Positions 3,496 to 38,810 of a stretch of DNA of 39,119 bases are shown in pieces; within the stretch, counting starts at the first letter, position 1, and the number at the start of each line of letters is the position of its first letter. The translations under genes were made by a program, and so were the position numbers. The stretch is from Clostridia bacterium (GTDB lineage Bacteria > Bacillota > Clostridia > Oscillospirales > Acutalibacteraceae), in NCBI GenBank assembly GCA_017454485.1, contig JAFTCX010000067.1, positions 1-39,119 of the forward strand. The letters run 5' to 3'. Under the pieces are notes generated by a model. It saw nothing but the letters and a program-made list of their open reading frames with translations. It ran no database searches and had not been told where the DNA came from.

Positions 3496-5091
3496 ATGAA
3501 AAAAGCAAAACAGGTTTTATCCATTTTTTTAACGGTGCTGACGCTGGGAATGACAGTTGCTGTCTGTGTATTGCAAGTTGGAGCGGTAAGTATTCCGGCA
3601 GATGCAGTGAAATACGGCAGTCATTATTATAAGGCCTACGACGATCCTATGTCGTGGACTGATGCAAAAGTGTATTGTGAGAGTTTAGGTGGACATTTAG
3701 CAACTGTTACTTCATCAGAAGAGAATGACTTTATTTTTAGTATCATAAGGAATAAGACAAAAAACATATATTGGCTTGGTGGCACAGACAAAGAAACCGA
3801 AGGCATTTGGACATGGATAACCGGAGAAACTTGGAACTTTGCAAATTGGTCTTTGGGTAATCCTGATTATGGTGCACCCCCAAAACCCGATTGCGTTCGG
3901 GATGAAGATGATTATTTACAGATATATCGATCAGATATGACAGGAAATCCGCCAGGAACGTGGAACGATGATCCGGATGACGCAGAAAACCCAATAGAGT
4001 TTTATGCTTTGAATCATATTGGTTTTGTCTGCGAATGGGACAATATTTACAACCTTGGCGAAGAAACCTACAGTTTCAAAAACTATGGAGATGCGGATTC
4101 CAAAGGCGGTCATTGTTTTGGAATGTCTATTACCAGTTCTGCCTATTATACTAAACTGCTGAACATGAACGCACTCGGTGAAAAGAATGCACTTTATGCG
4201 TATAGCGATAGTGCATCAGTGCGTACGCCAATCTGTTACTATCAGGCAATCCAAGGTTCCACCTCACTTTCGGCAACGATTGCCGGCGGCAGTTCATATT
4301 ATGGACGTTCATCTGATATTCTGTCAGACTGGAACGCCGTCATAGACGCTGTAAAAGACCACCAAAATGACGACCGAGGAACACTGCAAATCGGTTTTCG
4401 CGGCGCAACTTATGCCGGCAACGGAAGTGTTGTACGTGGCGGTCACGCAATCAACTTCCTGCGCTATGAAGTTGTAGACGGACAGGAACGCGTATATGCA
4501 TATGACAATAATTTTCCGTCAACTGAAACATATTTTTATCTTGATGAAAACGGAGCCGTGCGACAAGCGCCTTTAGCAACTTTCCCCGTATCCATTGATT
4601 GTATTGCTATCAGAAGTGTGGCTGCATATATTGAAGGCGCGGGCAGATTCAATAAAATGCGCGCAATCTATGCAGACAAAGATTTGATTGCTATTGATGG
4701 AATCAAACCATATCTTATGGACGGTGATATAGAGTTTGGGGAACACGTTATGTTTGAACTCCCCGATGACTTGAGCCAAGTCAGAATCACGCCGCTGGCT
4801 GACGGAGCAAGCTTTACTTATATGGACGAAGTTTATACCTTCGACAAAATTGACAAAGACACCTATGGCATGTTGACGCTCGCTAAAGCAGATACAGACA
4901 AAGGAGTTTTGATCATAAATAACGCACCTGAAAAGATGATTGACGAACCTGTGAATCCGGATTTAAATCAACCTCAGCCGCAACCAGCTACCAACCTCTG
5001 CAAATACTGCGGCGAAGTCCACATCGGATTCTTCGGCAGTATCATCGGCTTTTTCCACAGCATTCTCGCCTTGTTCGGTCTGCACAAGTAA
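3496..5091 (+). CDS. Secreted C-type lectin-domain / papain-like cysteine peptidase-like protein with CxxCG tail
   Basis: A 531-residue exported protein. Signal peptide at residues 1-30 (KKAKQ, then hydrophobic). Residues ~38-181 form a C-type lectin-like domain: HYYKAYDDPMSWTDAKVYC, GGHLATVTS, WLGGTD, GTWND and the closing FVCEW, with C61/C179 as the expected disulfide. Residues ~190-375 look like a papain-fold peptidase: GGHCFGMS (C207), GGHAINFL (H317) and YAYDNNF (D337/N338) supply a possible Cys-His-Asn/Asp triad. A proline-rich linker (PQPQPAT) leads to the tail CKYCGEVHIGF...IGFFHSILALFGLHK, nearly identical to the tail of the protein at 23432-25414. The body is AT-richer than the neighbours, while the tail-coding DNA is GC-rich. 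Peptidase activity is inferred from motifs only. Start set by AAAGGAG. Confidence 0.8.
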   Translation: MKKAKQVLSIFLTVLTLGMTVAVCVLQVGAVSIPADAVKYGSHYYKAYDDPMSWTDAKVYCESLGGHLATVTSSEENDFIFSIIRNKTKNIYWLGGTDKETEGIWTWITGETWNFANWSLGNPDYGAPPKPDCVRDEDDYLQIYRSDMTGNPPGTWNDDPDDAENPIEFYALNHIGFVCEWDNIYNLGEETYSFKNYGDADSKGGHCFGMSITSSAYYTKLLNMNALGEKNALYAYSDSASVRTPICYYQAIQGSTSLSATIAGGSSYYGRSSDILSDWNAVIDAVKDHQNDDRGTLQIGFRGATYAGNGSVVRGGHAINFLRYEVVDGQERVYAYDNNFPSTETYFYLDENGAVRQAPLATFPVSIDCIAIRSVAAYIEGAGRFNKMRAIYADKDLIAIDGIKPYLMDGDIEFGEHVMFELPDDLSQVRITPLADGASFTYMDEVYTFDKIDKDTYGMLTLAKADTDKGVLIINNAPEKMIDEPVNPDLNQPQPQPATNLCKYCGEVHIGFFGSIIGFFHSILALFGLHK

Positions 5092-7362: not shown

Positions 7363-8238
7363 ATGTACAATAGATTCTTGAAATACTTGTTGGACAATGA
7401 TTCCAAAGCCGGTTTGTCAAAAGCAGGCTATGTGATCAGAAAAATCATCAACCCTGCAATTCGTTTTGGAATTCCCTTTACAACCAAAACGAAACTGGTA
7501 ATTGTTCGGCGCGAGTATGTTCCGAAAGACATGCCGGTCATTTTTGCGGCAACGCACGGCTTCAAAGAAGATATTGTTGACACCCTCGTTGTGATTGACC
7601 GTCAGGCGTACATTCTGATTGGGAGTTTGTCGCAGATTTTTCATGCAATTGAAGGCGTTTCCGCTTGGGCGGCCGGAACCATTCTGGTTGACAGGCTCAA
7701 CAAAGAATCCCGTCGGGCGTCAAAAGAAAAAATGATTCACGCGGTCAACATGGGTGCAAATGTTATCATCTTTCCGGAGGGTACATGGAATAAATCGCCG
7801 AACCAAATGGCAAGTGGCTTGTTTCCGGGCGTTTACGACATTGCAAAAGCAACCGGCGCATTGGTTGCACCGGTTGCCACACACAGAGACGGCGAATATG
7901 TATACGGAATTCTGGAACAGGCTTTTGATATAACGAAATATGATAGAGCCGAGGGCGTTGCGGTCTTACGGGACAAGCTTTCAACCATGCGTTATGAGTT
8001 GATGGACAACTATTCTCATATTGAGAGAGCCGCATTGCCGTTCGGCGAAGAAGCTGAACGCTATTGGAATACGTTCATTGACGACCTTATGCATGAGGTG
8101 GAATTCTATGATTATGAGGACGAACTTCACACGAAGTTTGTCGACAAGTCCATCACTGAACCCGAAGATGCTTTTGCGCATCTTGCAGAACTGAAGCCGA
8201 ATCGAAACAATGCGTTTTTGTTGAACAAGAGGTTATAA
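7363..8238 (+). CDS. PlsC-like (LPLAT family) acyltransferase A
   Basis: 291 residues, ATG after AGGTGA. Motif I is HGFKED (H65, D70; the H-x4-D charge relay of glycerolipid acyltransferases) and motif III is FPEGTWNKS (E139), in the right order and ~70 residues apart. The usual Arg of FPEGTR is replaced by Trp. No signal peptide or clear membrane span; probably a peripheral membrane enzyme moving an acyl chain from acyl-ACP/CoA onto a lipid or other alcohol. Overall resemblance to housekeeping PlsC is limited to these motifs. Followed after 2 bp by a paralogue with the same H-G-F and FPEG-x-WNK signatures, so the two are co-transcribed and perhaps act in sequence. Base composition is AT-richer than nearby housekeeping genes. 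Substrate unknown. Confidence 0.78.
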   Translation: MYNRFLKYLLDNDSKAGLSKAGYVIRKIINPAIRFGIPFTTKTKLVIVRREYVPKDMPVIFAATHGFKEDIVDTLVVIDRQAYILIGSLSQIFHAIEGVSAWAAGTILVDRLNKESRRASKEKMIHAVNMGANVIIFPEGTWNKSPNQMASGLFPGVYDIAKATGALVAPVATHRDGEYVYGILEQAFDITKYDRAEGVAVLRDKLSTMRYELMDNYSHIERAALPFGEEAERYWNTFIDDLMHEVEFYDYEDELHTKFVDKSITEPEDAFAHLAELKPNRNNAFLLNKRL

Positions 8239-8240
8239 GT

Positions 8241-9341
8241 ATGTTTTCAACGCAAAAAGAAAAGCTGAATCGAAAAATCTTTGAGCAATATAAAGACTCC
8301 TTATCATCGTTTCATGATCTTGTCGGCGACGATTGTTCTGGTATGTCTAATCTGTTTTATCTCATAAACAAACGGTTTTTGCATTGGTTGGACAACGACC
8401 CTGAAATTGCTGTTTCAGAAAAGGAAATCTTGTTTCGACGCAAGTTTTATCGGATACTTCAGAAAATAGGTCCGGGCATTCTGAAATGCACGCAAGTTTA
8501 CGAAAACAGAGAAGATATAGATCCCTCTTATGAAAAAAGGCTCCCTGTTGTTTTGCCTGAAAAACCGGTGATTTTTGTTGCAAATCATGGCTTTCACGAT
8601 GATGTATTAGCAACCTTATTAGCAGCAGGCCGTCACCCCTATTTCGTTTGGGGTAGTTTACCTTTGCTATACAACACAATTGATGGGTTAGCCAGTGCCA
8701 TGGTCGGCGGTATTTGCGTGAACAGAAAAAACAAGCAAAGCAGAAAGGCATCTATTCCAAAGGCACTGAAAGCAATGGAATATGGTGCAGATTTGATCGT
8801 GTTTCCGGAGGGCGGTTGGAACAAAACATCGGAACGATTGGTGCTTGATCTTTGGAAAGGTGCCTATACTCTTTCCAAAGCGGCAGAATGCGAAGTTGTT
8901 CCGATTGTTCATTATGTGAGGGATATGGAAATCCTGGATAAAAAGAGCATTATCCATACCGTTATAGATGATCCGATCCCACTCTATCAGATGACGCAGG
9001 AAGAGGCGTTGACTTGTTTGCGCGAAATCATTGCGTCATGGCAGTGGAAGATGGCAGAGTTGTATGGTCAATCCACACGTGAAGCGGAAATGAAAGGCTT
9101 TTCGACCAGCGACGAAAAGTGGAGAGCACACCTGACGGAGCGTATGAAAGGTGTTGCTAGATACGATTCAGAGGTTGAAAAAAACTCCGAATACAGATCA
9201 AAAGAAATCATACGCGCAGAAGATGTCTTCCGCCCAATTGCCAACATTCAAAACATCACACCGCAAAACGTGAAAGATGTTCTTTATGCAAAAGAGCTTG
9301 TAAAAACCATTGAAGAAAGCGATTGGCAAAAACTGTTTTGA
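8241..9341 (+). CDS. PlsC-like (LPLAT family) acyltransferase B
   Basis: 366 residues, starting 2 bp after gene A; GAGG of the ribosome binding site lies inside the end of A. Motif I is HGFHDD (H116, D121) and motif III is FPEGGWNKT (E190). It has ~50 extra N-terminal residues compared with A and a longer charged C-terminus, with no signal peptide or clear transmembrane segment. It shares with A the Trp in place of the Arg of FPEGTR and a following SRKAS/SRRAS-K block, so the two are diverged duplicates or a functional pair. Transcription is expected from the promoter at 7305; a terminator follows. Could modify lipids, lipoteichoic acid or a secreted product; the sequence does not say which. 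Confidence 0.78.
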   Translation: MFSTQKEKLNRKIFEQYKDSLSSFHDLVGDDCSGMSNLFYLINKRFLHWLDNDPEIAVSEKEILFRRKFYRILQKIGPGILKCTQVYENREDIDPSYEKRLPVVLPEKPVIFVANHGFHDDVLATLLAAGRHPYFVWGSLPLLYNTIDGLASAMVGGICVNRKNKQSRKASIPKALKAMEYGADLIVFPEGGWNKTSERLVLDLWKGAYTLSKAAECEVVPIVHYVRDMEILDKKSIIHTVIDDPIPLYQMTQEEALTCLREIIASWQWKMAELYGQSTREAEMKGFSTSDEKWRAHLTERMKGVARYDSEVEKNSEYRSKEIIRAEDVFRPIANIQNITPQNVKDVLYAKELVKTIEESDWQKLF

Positions 9342-13008: not shown

Positions 13009-14121
13009 TCAGTGGCTGCTCAGTTGTTCCAAAATTTTGATGGCCTCTTTATATTCGTTTTCATTGCGGCGCTGCAAAAGCCGGCGCAGAAGGTTGTTGC
13101 GCCATTCCTTTTCATATGCGCCGTTGGGCTCTTTTTCGTTCATCTGTTCACTTTGGTGCATCAGCTCGCGCTTTTCGCCGAATTCCTGTTGCAGCGCGGC
13201 GAGAAATTCTTCGAGCGTATACACGCGCAGCGTTTCCACGCCCAGCGCGTACGCCAGCTCCTCCATTTGTTCAAACGCGCGAAAGCCGAAGCGTTTCACC
13301 AGTGCGCGGAAGTCGTCCGGCGAAAAATAATAGATTTTGCCGAGCAGATAGGAAAACGCCTTTTTCGCGTCCAGATAGCCGAGCTGCTTTCTGCGTTCGT
13401 TCATCTCGCTGCTGAAATCAAACGACGCGCCCAGCTCATCAATGTTGTACGGGCGGATATAGGTGACCTCGCAGTTTTGAAAATCGAGGTTATAGTTGAC
13501 GCCCTTGATCGACGCGATATCCACCACAACAATGCGGTTATAGCCGCTGCGGCGCAGCATGGCCACCGGCGTGTTGTCGTAAATTCCGCCGTCCAAAAAG
13601 CGTTCGCCCTGCGGGCCGATGTTGTTGGCCAGCGGGATGCACGCCGAAGCGAGAATGTAATCGAGCAGTTGCCCTTCGGGGATGTCGTCGAGGAACAGCT
13701 CCAGTCCGGCGGGTTCGTTTTTGGAAAGCTGCACCGTGACCACGCCGTAGGGAATGCCGGCGGCGCGAATTTTTGCTTCGTCAATGTGCGGCGCAAGAAA
13801 ATCGCGCACGGGCGACGCGTCAAAGCCGCGGTTTTTCAAAAATTCCCGCAGCAGCGCCGGATAATTTTTTTTGCTGAATAAATTGTCGGGGTCCTTGAGC
13901 GGCGTTGAGAAGTTGACGCCTTTGTCCAGCTCAATTTCGTTCCAAAGCTGTTCGGCGCCGAGATAATCGTCCGCGACGACCAGCGCACCGTTGATTGCGC
14001 CGATGGACACGCCGGCCACCGCGTCAAACTGCACGCCGAGCTCACGCATGGCTTTCCATGCGCCGAGCTGATAGGCGCCCTTTGCGCCGCCGCCGGCAAG
14101 GACAAGTCCGTAGGGTTTCAT
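13009..14121 (-). CDS. Patatin-like phospholipase
   Basis: 370 residues. Patatin fold: oxyanion loop GLVLAGGGAKGAYQLG near residue 5, nucleophile elbow GVSIG (S39) and catalytic Asp in FLDGGIYDN (D177), forming the Ser-Asp dyad. No signal peptide or transmembrane span, so an intracellular lipid acyl hydrolase acting on membrane phospholipids or acylglycerols. The C-terminal ~110 residues are charged and helical (RRKQLGYLDAKKAF onward) and not part of the core fold. Upstream of mfd on the same strand and preceded by GGAGG. A repeat-filled gap of 373 bp separates it from hemW. Confidence 0.9.
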   Translation of the reverse strand: MKPYGLVLAGGGAKGAYQLGAWKAMRELGVQFDAVAGVSIGAINGALVVADDYLGAEQLWNEIELDKGVNFSTPLKDPDNLFSKKNYPALLREFLKNRGFDASPVRDFLAPHIDEAKIRAAGIPYGVVTVQLSKNEPAGLELFLDDIPEGQLLDYILASACIPLANNIGPQGERFLDGGIYDNTPVAMLRRSGYNRIVVVDIASIKGVNYNLDFQNCEVTYIRPYNIDELGASFDFSSEMNERRKQLGYLDAKKAFSYLLGKIYYFSPDDFRALVKRFGFRAFEQMEELAYALGVETLRVYTLEEFLAALQQEFGEKRELMHQSEQMNEKEPNGAYEKEWRNNLLRRLLQRRNENEYKEAIKILEQLSSH

Positions 14122-23431: not shown

Positions 23432-25414
23432 TCATTTCCGCAGCCCGAACAGCGCGAGGATGCTGTGGAAGAAGCCGATTAAAATACCGGGGAAGCCGGT
23501 ATGCGTCTGACCGCAGTAGGCGCAGCCGCCGGAGGGCTGGGGCTGCGGCGCCGGATTCGTCGGCTGGGTCGGGTTGGTTGGATTTGTCGGGTTGGTCGGC
23601 TCATCGGGCTTGGTCAGTTTTGGAATCACCGTACCATAGGAAAGCGTCTGTTTGCAGACCGTGCAATAGGTGTCGCCGGTGTAACCTTCGGCGGTGTAGG
23701 TCGCGTCTTTGGCGTTGATGGTCGTGACTTTGTGCGCGGCAAGCGCCTGCTCCGTATGGCCGCTGATATACTTTTTGCAATCATTGCAGTACACACCGGC
23801 GGTATAGCCCCTGACCGTGCAGGTGGAAGCGGTTGCAGCGACAGATTTGGTGTTGACGTGGTTGGAGGGGTTGATGGCGATGGGTTCGTTGTAGGTGGCA
23901 CTGCAGCCCTTCACTGTACAGTGGTATGTGCGCAATCCGGTTGTGCTGCAAGTTGCAGCCTTCGTAACGCTTGCAGAATAGTTATGTGTATGGTTTGGGT
24001 TGTAAACAGTCCAATTCACTCTGCTACTGTCAATGTATCCACAGTCATTCCATGCAGTTACATATGCTGAAAAATCACCTGTAAAATTACAAACATATGC
24101 ATAGGATGGATTCGTTAAAACCATAGTCACAATCCTTGAACCGTCTGTTTCAATGCCGATTGTATAGTGTGTGGCAAGGTCGCTCTCAAACTCAAAGGAA
24201 ATTGTATCATTCAGACGAACTAATTCTGCACTCGCTGTAATGTTGCTGTATGATGGTTTGGTATCATAAACAGTCCATGAAACTTTTTCGCTATCAACAT
24301 ATCCAAGGTCATTCCTTGAAGTTACATAGGCTGTGTAATTACCAACGGCTTCACACTTATAAGAATATGATGTGTCTGATAAAACTTTTGTTAAAACTCG
24401 CTGACCATTTCTTTCAACTCCAATGGTAAAATTTGTCGCTACATCACTTTCAAAAGCAAGCAAAATACTGTTATTAATTTTAACAAAGTCTTCACTCTTT
24501 GTGATTCTGCTATAAGATGGCTTAGAATCATAAACAGTCCATGAAACTTTTTTGCTATCAACGGTTCCAAGTTCATTCCATGAAGTTACATAGGCCGTGT
24601 AATTACCAGCGGTTTCACACTTATAAGAATATGTTGTGTCGGTTAAAACTTTTGTTAAAACCCGCTGACCATTTCTTTCAACTCCAAGGGTAAAATTTTC
24701 TTTAACATCACTGTCAAAAGTGAACAAATTATTGTTTCCAAGTTTTAAACAAGTATATTCAGCTGAAATGGTTGCATAAGTGGGGGCTTGACTTGGCGCT
24801 GTGGAGCCGTTCATTTTTACCACATAAGTACATGGATAACTACTACTAAGCGCAGAAGATGCAGTACAGGAATTGTGAGCAGCATAATATACTTTTCCGT
24901 CGGCATCTTTTTCAACGCAGATACCAACATGATCATCTCTACCGTTGACGTTTCTATTTGTCCCGTAAAGAAATACGACATCACCTATATCAATTTGTGA
25001 ATTTGAAGGATCACTTATTATCTGATATCCACACTCAGAAAAGTATACCAACTGTGCCTCCGAACAAGAAAATGGATTTGTATAGTTTCCTAGAGTTCCT
25101 CCTATGTTATTATAAGATCGTTGTGAAGATTTGTAATAGCTATAATTTGGAATTGACACACCACCTTGTTCAAGACAAGCAGAAACAAATCCAGCACATA
25201 GCCATCCATTTGAGCAATACCCGGCCCCATATTTTTTTGGTCCGGCATTGTAATGATCAATATCATACTGTGCATGAGATTTTGCAAATGCAACTGCCGC
25301 TGATGCATTATAAGACGCTGCACTTGCCTTCAATCCTATATTCATCACCGTCACAGCACCCACCAGCATCACCACAGCCAACAAAATGGATAAATACTTT
25401 CTTGTTTTTTTCAT
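23432..25414 (-). CDS. Secreted amidase-like protein with Ig-type repeats and CxxCG tail
   Basis: 660 residues, ATG after GGAGG. Signal peptide 1-32. Residues 33-200 resemble Amidase_6/NlpC-P60-like cysteine hydrolases: YNASAAVAFA, WLCAGFVSACLEQGG (C73 nucleophile), GDVVFLYG, DDHVGI (H162), AAHNS. Three ~86-residue beta-type repeats follow (~212-296, 297-383, 384-472; each with SWTVYD- or NWTVYN-like ends), the first two nearly identical at DNA level. Residues ~475-600 are Cys-pair repeats (TCSTTGLRTYHCTVKGC, YCNDCKKYI, YCTVCKQT), then PTNPTNPTN linkers and the tail CAYCGQTHTGF...IGFFHSILALFGLRK shared with the protein at 3496. Likely acts on peptidoglycan or peptides outside the cell (inference). 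The 5' two-thirds are AT-rich, the 3' third GC-rich. Confidence 0.78.
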   Translation of the reverse strand: MKKTRKYLSILLAVVMLVGAVTVMNIGLKASAASYNASAAVAFAKSHAQYDIDHYNAGPKKYGAGYCSNGWLCAGFVSACLEQGGVSIPNYSYYKSSQRSYNNIGGTLGNYTNPFSCSEAQLVYFSECGYQIISDPSNSQIDIGDVVFLYGTNRNVNGRDDHVGICVEKDADGKVYYAAHNSCTASSALSSSYPCTYVVKMNGSTAPSQAPTYATISAEYTCLKLGNNNLFTFDSDVKENFTLGVERNGQRVLTKVLTDTTYSYKCETAGNYTAYVTSWNELGTVDSKKVSWTVYDSKPSYSRITKSEDFVKINNSILLAFESDVATNFTIGVERNGQRVLTKVLSDTSYSYKCEAVGNYTAYVTSRNDLGYVDSEKVSWTVYDTKPSYSNITASAELVRLNDTISFEFESDLATHYTIGIETDGSRIVTMVLTNPSYAYVCNFTGDFSAYVTAWNDCGYIDSSRVNWTVYNPNHTHNYSASVTKAATCSTTGLRTYHCTVKGCSATYNEPIAINPSNHVNTKSVAATASTCTVRGYTAGVYCNDCKKYISGHTEQALAAHKVTTINAKDATYTAEGYTGDTYCTVCKQTLSYGTVIPKLTKPDEPTNPTNPTNPTQPTNPAPQPQPSGGCAYCGQTHTGFPGILIGFFHSILALFGLRK

Positions 25415-37364: not shown

Positions 37365-38810
37365 ATGATGAAAAACAAGCGATTGAAATCAGCGGCAAAA
37401 CGAAAAAACATGAAAAAGGTTTTATGTGTAACGGTCAGTATTGTAATGCTGCTCGGCATATGCGGCGGATTTCCGGCTACGGCAGCATCCGACTATACAA
37501 TCGTATCGCCGTATGAGGACGTTGTATGGAGCGGAGATCACGCATGGGGCGCATACAAAGGCGTTCTTCATTCGCATACGACCTGGAGCGATGCCGATGA
37601 GGATCTCCCGACAATGGTAAAGGAATATTATTCTCTCGGTTATGACTTTCTCGCCAACAGCGATCACGCTGTTACAGGCGTTGCGTGGAACAAAGAACCC
37701 GAGCTTGTGTCTCCGTATTGGTATCAGTATTTTCTGGGCAACAAGCTGAGTGTGCTTACCGATGAAGAGTACGAGGCGATCACTTCCGGCACCTACAACA
37801 ACAGGGGTTACGGTATGACCTGCATCACCGGCGCAAATGAGCTGAACCATCTTACGCTCTCAAAAAATCATGTGAACGGATATTTTCTTCCAAGCGGCGT
37901 CGGCAACGGATTTGCCGGGTATTATCCGGGGAAGAATATTACGGACCCCTCGGGCTATGTCAGTGAAAATGAGGTCGGTATTGAAAACGCCTTAAGATTT
38001 GTGGAAGACAACGGCGCGCTTTCTCATATCAATCACCCCGGGGACGTGCTTGATTCCACCAGACATCCCGAGGTCGTAACAGATCCTGAAACGATCGGCT
38101 TTTACGGCGATCTTCTGCTGAAATACAAGAGCTGTCTCGGAATAGAAGCGCTCAACGAAGTCAACAGCGTAACGCGCTATGACAGAGTCCTGTGGGATCA
38201 GCTTCTTATGTACTGCCTGCCCTATGGCAAAACCGTCATCGGCTTCAGCAATACGGACGCCCATTCTCTTCTCAACTGCGACAGCTCTTTCAGCGTATTC
38301 ATGATGAAAGAGAACACACAGGAAGAAGTAAAAAAGACCATGCAGTCGGGCGCTTTCTTCTGTGTGTCGAAGTGCCTTCCGGGAAACGACGTTTATGAGA
38401 TAGGTCCCAAAGAGGATATTGACGTCAGAGGCAAGGGTATCCCATATCCGATGTTCAACAGCGTTGAAGTCAACGGGCACAAGGTTTCTGTCACTGTCGA
38501 AAACGCTGATGAAATACAGTGGATCGCGAACGGCAAAGTCATCATGAAGGGCAAAGTAGGCGCAGATCCGATCGTTCTGGATCTTGACGCTGTTGAAGGC
38601 AGCGAGGATTTTCGGTATATAAGAGCAGAGATCTTAGGGGAAGGCGGAATTTGTCTGACGCAGGCGCTTGTGATCGACGACGGAACACAGCCGCTTGCAT
38701 TTCATGCAAAAGCGCACACGCCGAGCCTTATTGAAAGAATCATCCTGTTCCTGCGCGGATTGAAGCTTTACAACATCTTTGTTGAGATCTTCCGCGCTGT
38801 TAGAAAATAA
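37365..38810 (+). CDS. Secreted PHP-domain metallo-phosphoesterase-like protein
   Basis: 481 residues, ATG after GCGGAGG. Exported: basic N-terminus (KRKNMKK), hydrophobic stretch to ~36 and ATAASD as a likely cleavage site. PHP fold motifs: GVLHSHTTWSDAD (H69, H71; motif I), DFLANSDHA (D100, H101; motif II), GALSHINHPGD (motif III) and GFSNTDAHS (motif IV), the residues that bind two or three metal ions. Intracellular PHP proteins hydrolyse phosphoesters; secreted ones are poorly known. A C-terminal beta-type domain covers ~375-450 (VEVNGHKVSVTVENADEIQWI). It ends in an amphipathic, basic helix (LIERIILFLRGLKLYNIFVEIFRAVRK in part), functionally reminiscent of, but not matching, the CxxCG tails elsewhere in the window. 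Confidence 0.85.
   Translation: MMKNKRLKSAAKRKNMKKVLCVTVSIVMLLGICGGFPATAASDYTIVSPYEDVVWSGDHAWGAYKGVLHSHTTWSDADEDLPTMVKEYYSLGYDFLANSDHAVTGVAWNKEPELVSPYWYQYFLGNKLSVLTDEEYEAITSGTYNNRGYGMTCITGANELNHLTLSKNHVNGYFLPSGVGNGFAGYYPGKNITDPSGYVSENEVGIENALRFVEDNGALSHINHPGDVLDSTRHPEVVTDPETIGFYGDLLLKYKSCLGIEALNEVNSVTRYDRVLWDQLLMYCLPYGKTVIGFSNTDAHSLLNCDSSFSVFMMKENTQEEVKKTMQSGAFFCVSKCLPGNDVYEIGPKEDIDVRGKGIPYPMFNSVEVNGHKVSVTVENADEIQWIANGKVIMKGKVGADPIVLDLDAVEGSEDFRYIRAEILGEGGICLTQALVIDDGTQPLAFHAKAHTPSLIERIILFLRGLKLYNIFVEIFRAVRK

Follow-up and report, generated by a model that had tools for sequence, protein, structure and literature searches.

A conserved Cys/His tail on diverse secreted proteins of a Clostridia lineage: a putative exported zinc module for non-covalent tethering

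Secreted proteins with unrelated bodies in a Clostridia bacterium and its relatives share a tail of approximately 30 residues, in which a CxxC-x3-H knuckle is followed by a basic amphipathic helix with a further conserved His. Based on the sequence, we give a probability of about 0.5 to the reading that this tail is an exported zinc mini-domain serving as a non-covalent tether, with the membrane as its probable target. Two copies lie in the window, i.e. the whole stretch of 39,119 nucleotides analysed here (contig JAFTCX010000067.1).

The tail in the window and in its genome

P0001 ends in CKYCGEVHIGFFGSIIGFFHSILALFGLHK, with the stop codon immediately after, and P0002, read on the minus strand from 25414 down to 23432, ends in CAYCGQTHTGFPGILIGFFHSILALFGLRK (Table 1). 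Over their 30 residues the two tails share 73% identity, and they matched each other with an E value of 7e-11 in a search of the whole genome; within the window, the in-frame module pattern was present at both tails and nowhere else, against 0 of 100 shuffles, which excludes chance. Thus, the near-identical ends described in the original prediction are real, and they were correctly located, with the minus strand of the second carrier left unstated. The bodies are unrelated, as had been claimed, and the lectin assignment of P0001 was confirmed (Lectin_C, 3e-16), whereas its supposed peptidase-like part found no confirmation in Pfam. P0002 had been called amidase-like with Ig repeats; its matches to NlpC/P60, Ig-like and PKD-like domains were weak and all under the Pfam cut-offs. 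A Pro-rich linker ahead of the tail is present in both proteins, as predicted.

Table 1. Features of the window and genes found near tail genes (positions with genome and contig handles lie outside the window)
Feature	Position	Strand	Basis
P0001, 531 amino acids: signal peptide, C-type lectin domain, further body, Pro-rich linker, tail	3496-5091	+	Pfam, translation
Pro/Gln-rich linker of P0001, ahead of tail	4942-4998	+	translation
P0001 tail module: CxYCGxxHxG knuckle and amphipathic helix, then stop codon	4999-5088	+	
P0001 knuckle with putative ligands C1 (4999-5001), C4 (5008-5010), H8 (5020-5022)	4999-5022	+	
P0001 putative fourth ligand H20, inside helix	5056-5058	+	H20 in 97/97 tails
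P0001 hydrophobic/amphipathic helix with basic end	5032-5088	+	extent inferred from sequence
P0002, 660 amino acids: signal peptide, weak NlpC/P60-like amidase region, Ig-like repeats, Cys repeats, Pro-rich linker, tail	23432-25414	-	
P0002 Pro/Thr/Asn-rich linker	23525-23608	-	
P0002 tail module, second in window	23435-23524	-	
Plain basic amphipathic C-terminal helix without Cys/His knuckle, secreted protein 37365-38810	38721-38807	+	
LytTR+GHKL pairs, G004 and G020	G004:C6:180680-182719 and 191510-193547 (L150); G020:C54:2318-4351 (L143)		
LytTR+GHKL pairs, G000	G000:C49:22327-24511 (L062); G000:C41:25916-27972 (L057)		
Tail-less secreted family	G000:C38:3472-5589, C53:5469-7247, C76:30532-32277, C86:44746-46395; three in G019		

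Elsewhere in the window, the gene directly after P0001 (5340-6932, plus strand) codes for a serine hydrolase domain of PF00144 (Beta-lactamase family); next come two acyltransferase-domain genes (7363-9341), and the minus strand carries a patatin-like gene at 13009-14121.

In the source assembly (G000; 2.42 Mb, 87% complete), a protein search found 30 matches: 29 real tails spread over many contigs and one antisense chance match (C82). The tail ends its protein in 27 of the 29 cases, the exceptions being an internal copy (C49) and one with a 62-residue extension (C59). In the latter (G000:C59:5347-7425, plus strand, L045), the frame continues past the tail near the contig end, which may be a genuine change or stem from the edge of the assembly. 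Altogether, 97 tails were read in regions fetched from five genomes (G000, G001, G004, G019 and G020), with ORFs called mechanically. When fewer than 45 residues between the first Cys and the stop were taken to define a C-terminal tail, 95 of the 97 were C-terminal. A signal peptide was detected by a simple rule in 82 of the 87 5'-complete tail ORFs.

Pfam analysis of 22 of the 29 own carriers identified, above cut-off, C-type lectin, ricin-type lectin, CHAP, M6 peptidase, LRR_5, GH25, transglutaminase core, papain plus lectin-like, DUF6273, Listeria-Bacteroides repeats, metallophosphoesterase, PKD and one Ig-like domain; four of the 22 had no family, and two more had sub-cut-off matches only. 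Clustering of the bodies by BLAST was unusable (shared repeats merged 71 of the 97), and the diversity of the cargo is therefore stated from the Pfam results for these 22 of 29 proteins. Given this varied cargo, the tail is a transferable module and not a single paralogous family, and its 29 own copies on diverse bodies extend well beyond the two window proteins. DNA homology between carriers often barely exceeds the module (approximately nt 205-303, counted over the final 300 nt and the stop). In a recent subset (C39:23435, C77, C53, C62, C52 and C26), about 300 nt or more are shared, up to the stop. The module therefore appears to spread as a 3' cassette.

Conserved ligands, helix and internal copies

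The pattern CxxC-x3-H-x11/12-H fits 95 of the 97 tails; of the other two, one has a shortened CxC and one is without Cys4. The helix His (H20) was found in all 97 tails, and each of the 26 aligned tails has C1, C4 and H8; C1, C4, H8, G10 and H20 are the dominant residues among 89 unique tails. The 'half' knuckle of two Cys and one His originally proposed has thus to be replaced by a conserved set of two Cys and two His (C1, C4, H8, H20), i.e. a set of four Cys/His ligands as in a zinc-binding domain.

In the four tails read that are without H20 (three from G029, one from G032), column 17 is Cys in 4/4 cases, as opposed to one (G003) among 103 H20-bearing tails (Fisher 1e-6, with the variants picked by reading from two genomes and relatedness ignored). 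As Cys17 sits one helical turn before the lost H20, this looks like a ligand replacement, and it is the best sign of metal binding; we consider it likely that the tail binds a metal. The tail is also under strong selection, as seen from a dN of 0.028 at a dS of 0.385 in nine G000-G019 orthologue pairs (body identity >70%; nine pairs out of the 29 own tails).

The residue pattern agrees with the hydrophobic amphipathic helix with a basic end that had been predicted. Hydrophobic residues of the 89 unique tails fall on positions 15, 16, 18, 19, 22, 23 and 26 and polar-side residues on 13, 17, 20, 21 and 24, and the column-averaged helical moment peaks at 100 degrees. For single tails, the median moment was 0.40 versus 0.20 for shuffles, with 32% exceeding the 95th percentile of shuffles. 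Over the part of the tail that starts at column 14, 95 tails have 1670 residues in all, 230 of them K/R and 7 D/E, and K/R occurs in the last three residues of 91 of the 95. A KD19 value of at least 1.6 was reached by 29 of 95 helices, with 66 below; together with the modest single-tail moments, this places the helix in between a surface helix and a membrane span.

In the C49 phosphoesterase, the module lies between the signal peptide and the catalytic domain. This internal arrangement is kept in three further proteins (G001:C17, G020:C20 and G020:C32; ~50% identity to the C49 protein), giving four secreted phosphoesterase genes in three genomes. Six phosphoesterase paralogues whose N-termini were read have neither a visible signal peptide nor the module; the family fragments G001:C2 and G020:C48 were left out of this reading. 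The tail thus occurs with many upstream domains, as foreseen for a profile scan in the original prediction, but not at the C-terminus only. A cleavage tag could not serve at the internal position, because it would sever the enzyme; a tether or docking domain could.

Basic amphipathic C-terminal helices also occur without a knuckle. With thresholds that were chosen after examples had been seen, such a plain helix ended 9 of 35 secreted tail-less ORFs versus 0 of 124 non-secreted ones in the fetched regions; of 4800 stretches drawn at random from inside the bodies of tail proteins, 6 passed the same test. The tails, being more hydrophobic, passed in 27 of 97 cases, which makes the analogy imperfect. 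One of the nine is the secreted window protein at 37365-38810 (plus strand), which ends in PSLIERIILFLRGLKLYNIFVEIFRAVRK and had no Pfam family at E 0.001; its helix is a possible functional counterpart of the tail. A secreted CotH-kinase protein (G000:C32:15719-18118, minus strand, L046), also counted within the nine, ends in CTHMCH-x20-CECGEAHY, in which Cys and His are arranged differently around a C-terminal helix. Very large proteins of G002 and G014 (L106 and L080) have CxCxCH-helix ends. In the papain family, 10 of whose 21 matches had readable ends, homologues carry the tail (G000, G019, G004, G020, G023), a plain helix end (G020, L279) or neither of them (G007, G009, G021, G029); the family shows an apparent exchange of C-terminal ends on one body type.

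Distribution and genomic neighbours

Within the genus (34 genomes, E 0.01), 10 genomes had 15-39 matches, seven had 1-2 and 17 had none. Among the tail-poor genomes, 12 of the 53 listed matches were read, in addition to the metagenome-assembled genome 'Ruminococcaceae bacterium RUG13427'. Real tails were confirmed by reading in G003, G005, G006, G029, G031 and G032; the weak matches read in G002, G014 and G015 do not represent this module. An rpoB tree covering 26 genomes groups its seven tail-rich members in one clade (99/98); the tail-rich G010, G012 and G013, which had no rpoB match, are omitted from this tree. The best full-length tails of G006, G005 and G032 (L074, L075, L121) are located on one orthologous secreted protein, named phosphatase/phosphodiesterase-like by eye, which is perhaps an old carrier; its G032 tail is without H20 and has Cys17.

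Outside the genus, convincing tails were found in G050, from another family of the order, and in RUG13427, whose tail is real and has one extra residue. Profile searches of 391 genomes of the class and 394 of the order revealed no convincing tail beyond these two. The class search gave 16 weak non-own matches in 15 genomes, of which one (L095) was read and has no tail. All six weak matches of the order search were inspected: two are borderline, namely a Cys-rich 108-aa frame with fitting spacing (G543) and a partial 46-aa frame (G755); the G553 match and the other three are no tails. In G553, which belongs to the same family but another genus, a large protein (L246) ends in the helix FWQKILKFIHTVLNWFRNLFK, in which the His is present without a CxxC knuckle. 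A general clostridial spread of the system, as the original prediction had it, was therefore not borne out.

A pattern scan of 85k species gave two matches, namely the RUG13427 tail and a Longimicrobiales frame that is unrelated and internal. The pattern was one base short and its last two codons were out of frame, so both matches are fortuitous and the near-empty result is no evidence of rarity, and rarity outside the genus is judged from the class and order profile searches only. No tail was found in phages and plasmids by tblastn, and viral contigs contained neither a P0002 relative nor the in-frame module pattern.

The predicted absence of LPXTG from the tails was confirmed, and one regular expression found no LPXTG-like end on the 3'-complete ORFs of at least 150 aa in the regions fetched from five genomes. 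Co-occurrence with one processing gene, by which the original prediction would have recognised a sorting signal, was not observed: none of sortase, exosortase and rhomboid co-varies with the tail in the 34 genus genomes. Pfam sortase matches are present in 34/34, tail-rich and tail-poor alike, and do not track the tail. Exosortase was found in 0/34 (the control in only 1 of 14 genomes) and rhomboid in 0/34 (the control in 14 of 14).

A low-scoring sortase pair (G000:C71:8635-9893) has similar counterparts, grouped by score and size only, as pairs in G019:C52 and G020:C54 and as one member in G012:C72; G016 has an ambiguous fragment. The pair was seen only in tail-rich genomes, yet it is missing from at least five of the ten (G001, G004, G010, G013 and G023) and thus cannot be a general partner.

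Recurrent neighbours were of two kinds, and neither resembles a processing enzyme. LytTR response regulators paired with GHKL histidine kinases, which we take to be agr-like, were found five times by tail genes, in 4 of 82 regions and three of five genomes; four of these pairs were confirmed by Pfam and the fifth (C41) only by its similarity to the other four. The pairs in G004 (twice) and G020 immediately precede a tail gene of the same strand; the C49 pair lies after the phosphoesterase and before a secreted gene with a plain-helix end, and the C41 pair follows a tail gene. This proximity suggests local sensory control of some tail carriers. A secreted family without the tail recurs near tail genes in 7 of the 82 regions (G000 and G019); several members have basic helix ends, and the one member scanned (C53) belongs to no Pfam family. 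There was no candidate for a docking receptor among the recurrent neighbours in the 82 fetched regions of five genomes.

Candidate functions and comparison with known systems

In the preferred reading, the tail would be a mobile, autonomous mini-domain of ~30 residues acting outside the cell. Its CxxC-x3-H knuckle and the helix His would bind one metal ion, most likely zinc, and the bound metal would staple the knuckle to the helix; the basic, nearly acid-free amphipathic helix would then tether the cargo non-covalently, probably to the outer membrane face, and the tail would not be cleaved. We infer zinc, fold, membrane binding and non-cleavage alike. The conserved ligands, the Cys17 replacement, the low dN/dS, the signal peptides, the internal copy and the plain-helix ends count for a tether, whereas the 29 of 95 helices hydrophobic enough for a membrane span (KD 1.6 or more) count against a non-spanning one. 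The high copy number in one clade would equally be expected from a dedicated receptor or processing enzyme. That a metal-stapled membrane tether holds much of one clade's surface proteome, without sortase, lipid or cleavage, is a further-reaching proposal that we regard as doubtful; under it, the local metal level could set retention versus release of dozens of enzymes and adhesins.

The original prediction, a sorting, anchoring or docking signal, is supported in part, by the varied bodies, the signal peptides, the C-terminal position of nearly all tails and the spread of the genes over many contigs. Against a classical sorting signal stand the internal copies, the lack of a co-varying enzyme among the three classes, the four conserved ligands of metal type and a helix that is in many tails too polar to span a membrane. 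Its narrower form, a tripartite C-terminal sorting signal that is cut by a membrane transpeptidase or a CPBP-type protease so that the protein is moved to another anchor, is possible and ranks second, though we hold it to be unlikely. The tail has the same layout as LPXTG, PEP-CTERM and GlyGly-CTERM (PMC3237569, in the text accessible to us), and an invariant Cys is likewise a property of MYXO-CTERM (PMC11980579, accessible part); 15-39 matches per rich genome with near absence elsewhere, basic residues at nearly every end and homologues with and without the tail would fit as well. However, cleavage would sever the enzyme in the four phosphoesterase genes with conserved internal copies, exosortase and rhomboid gave no match in the genus while sortases do not track the tail, metal-type ligands including a His within the helix are not expected of a cleavage motif, and 66 of 95 helices stay under KD 1.6.

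Dockerins bind cohesins, and by analogy the tail might be a folded zinc mini-domain that binds a proteinaceous surface receptor, such as a scaffold or an S-layer-like structure. The folded-domain signature with its conserved ligands, the many unrelated cargo bodies, the use both C-terminally and internally near the N-terminus, and the expansion in one clade would all suit such docking. We nevertheless give it a low probability, in view of the absence of a receptor candidate among the recurrent neighbours in the 82 regions and of a helix that is nearly acid-free, with a hydrophobic conserved face, and thus more like lipid binding; the plain helices on other secreted proteins suggest a use for the helix alone. 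An ordinary C-terminal transmembrane anchor with incidental Cys and His is very improbable: the KD19 values of the 29 more hydrophobic tails and the basic ends are compatible with it, but the other 66 fall below 1.6, and neither the near-absolute C/C/H/H conservation nor Cys17 in all four read H20-less variants would be expected.

Earlier paralogous C-terminal domains led to new surface-sorting systems. The present tail has up to 39 matches per genome and no Pfam or NCBIfam match, and its ligand set and internal copy point to a folded tether rather than a cleavage tag. If the tether reading is right, it would explain the surface retention of lysozyme-, papain-, M6- and lectin-type proteins and provide a portable tag of 30 residues.

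The tail is without a name in the libraries searched. Pfam gave no significant match for 90 tails (best E 0.08 for any family, Zn-ribbon 0.18 and above), NCBIfam none for five tails (best E 0.08), and the tail profile matched no PDB chain up to E 10. Literature searches, including terms sought in the accessible part of PMC5817068, revealed nothing recognised as this tail. In its CxxC knuckle and two His it resembles small C2H2 and zinc-ribbon knuckles, from which it differs in being exported, mostly C-terminal and spaced C-x2-C-x3-H-x11-H.

The nearest concept is that of Haft's paralogous C-terminal sorting domains (PMC3237569). According to the accessible text of that study, GlyGly-CTERM/rhombosortase, PEP-CTERM/exosortase and LPXTG/sortase involve lineage-specific paralogous C-terminal domains on unrelated secreted proteins with signal peptides; the layout is a motif, a hydrophobic helix and a basic end, and tail-bearing and tail-less homologues exist. 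The tail is like them in layout, including the basic end (91/95), in cargo signal peptides (82/87), unrelated cargo and tail-less homologues. In contrast to the tripartite signals, it is not exclusively C-terminal, has four metal-type ligands, an amphipathic and often non-spanning helix and a conserved internal use, and its genus yielded no exosortase or rhomboid and no matching sortase pattern.

MYXO-CTERM, as described in the accessible part of PMC11980579, combines an invariant Cys, a hydrophobic helix and a basic end on dozens of proteins per genome, and is cut by a CPBP protease (myxosortase) in dependence on the conserved Cys. The tail has the same four properties, but it has two Cys plus two His and occurs in internal copies. 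In its presumed way of working, with no homology claimed, it can be likened to the anchor of pestivirus Erns, a C-terminal in-plane amphipathic helix that favours lipids of negative charge and has been tied to retention versus secretion, although the ratio of secreted to retained protein is reported not to be set by lipid affinity (PMC4536213); the Erns helix is long, and the accessible text of that paper mentions no zinc knuckle.
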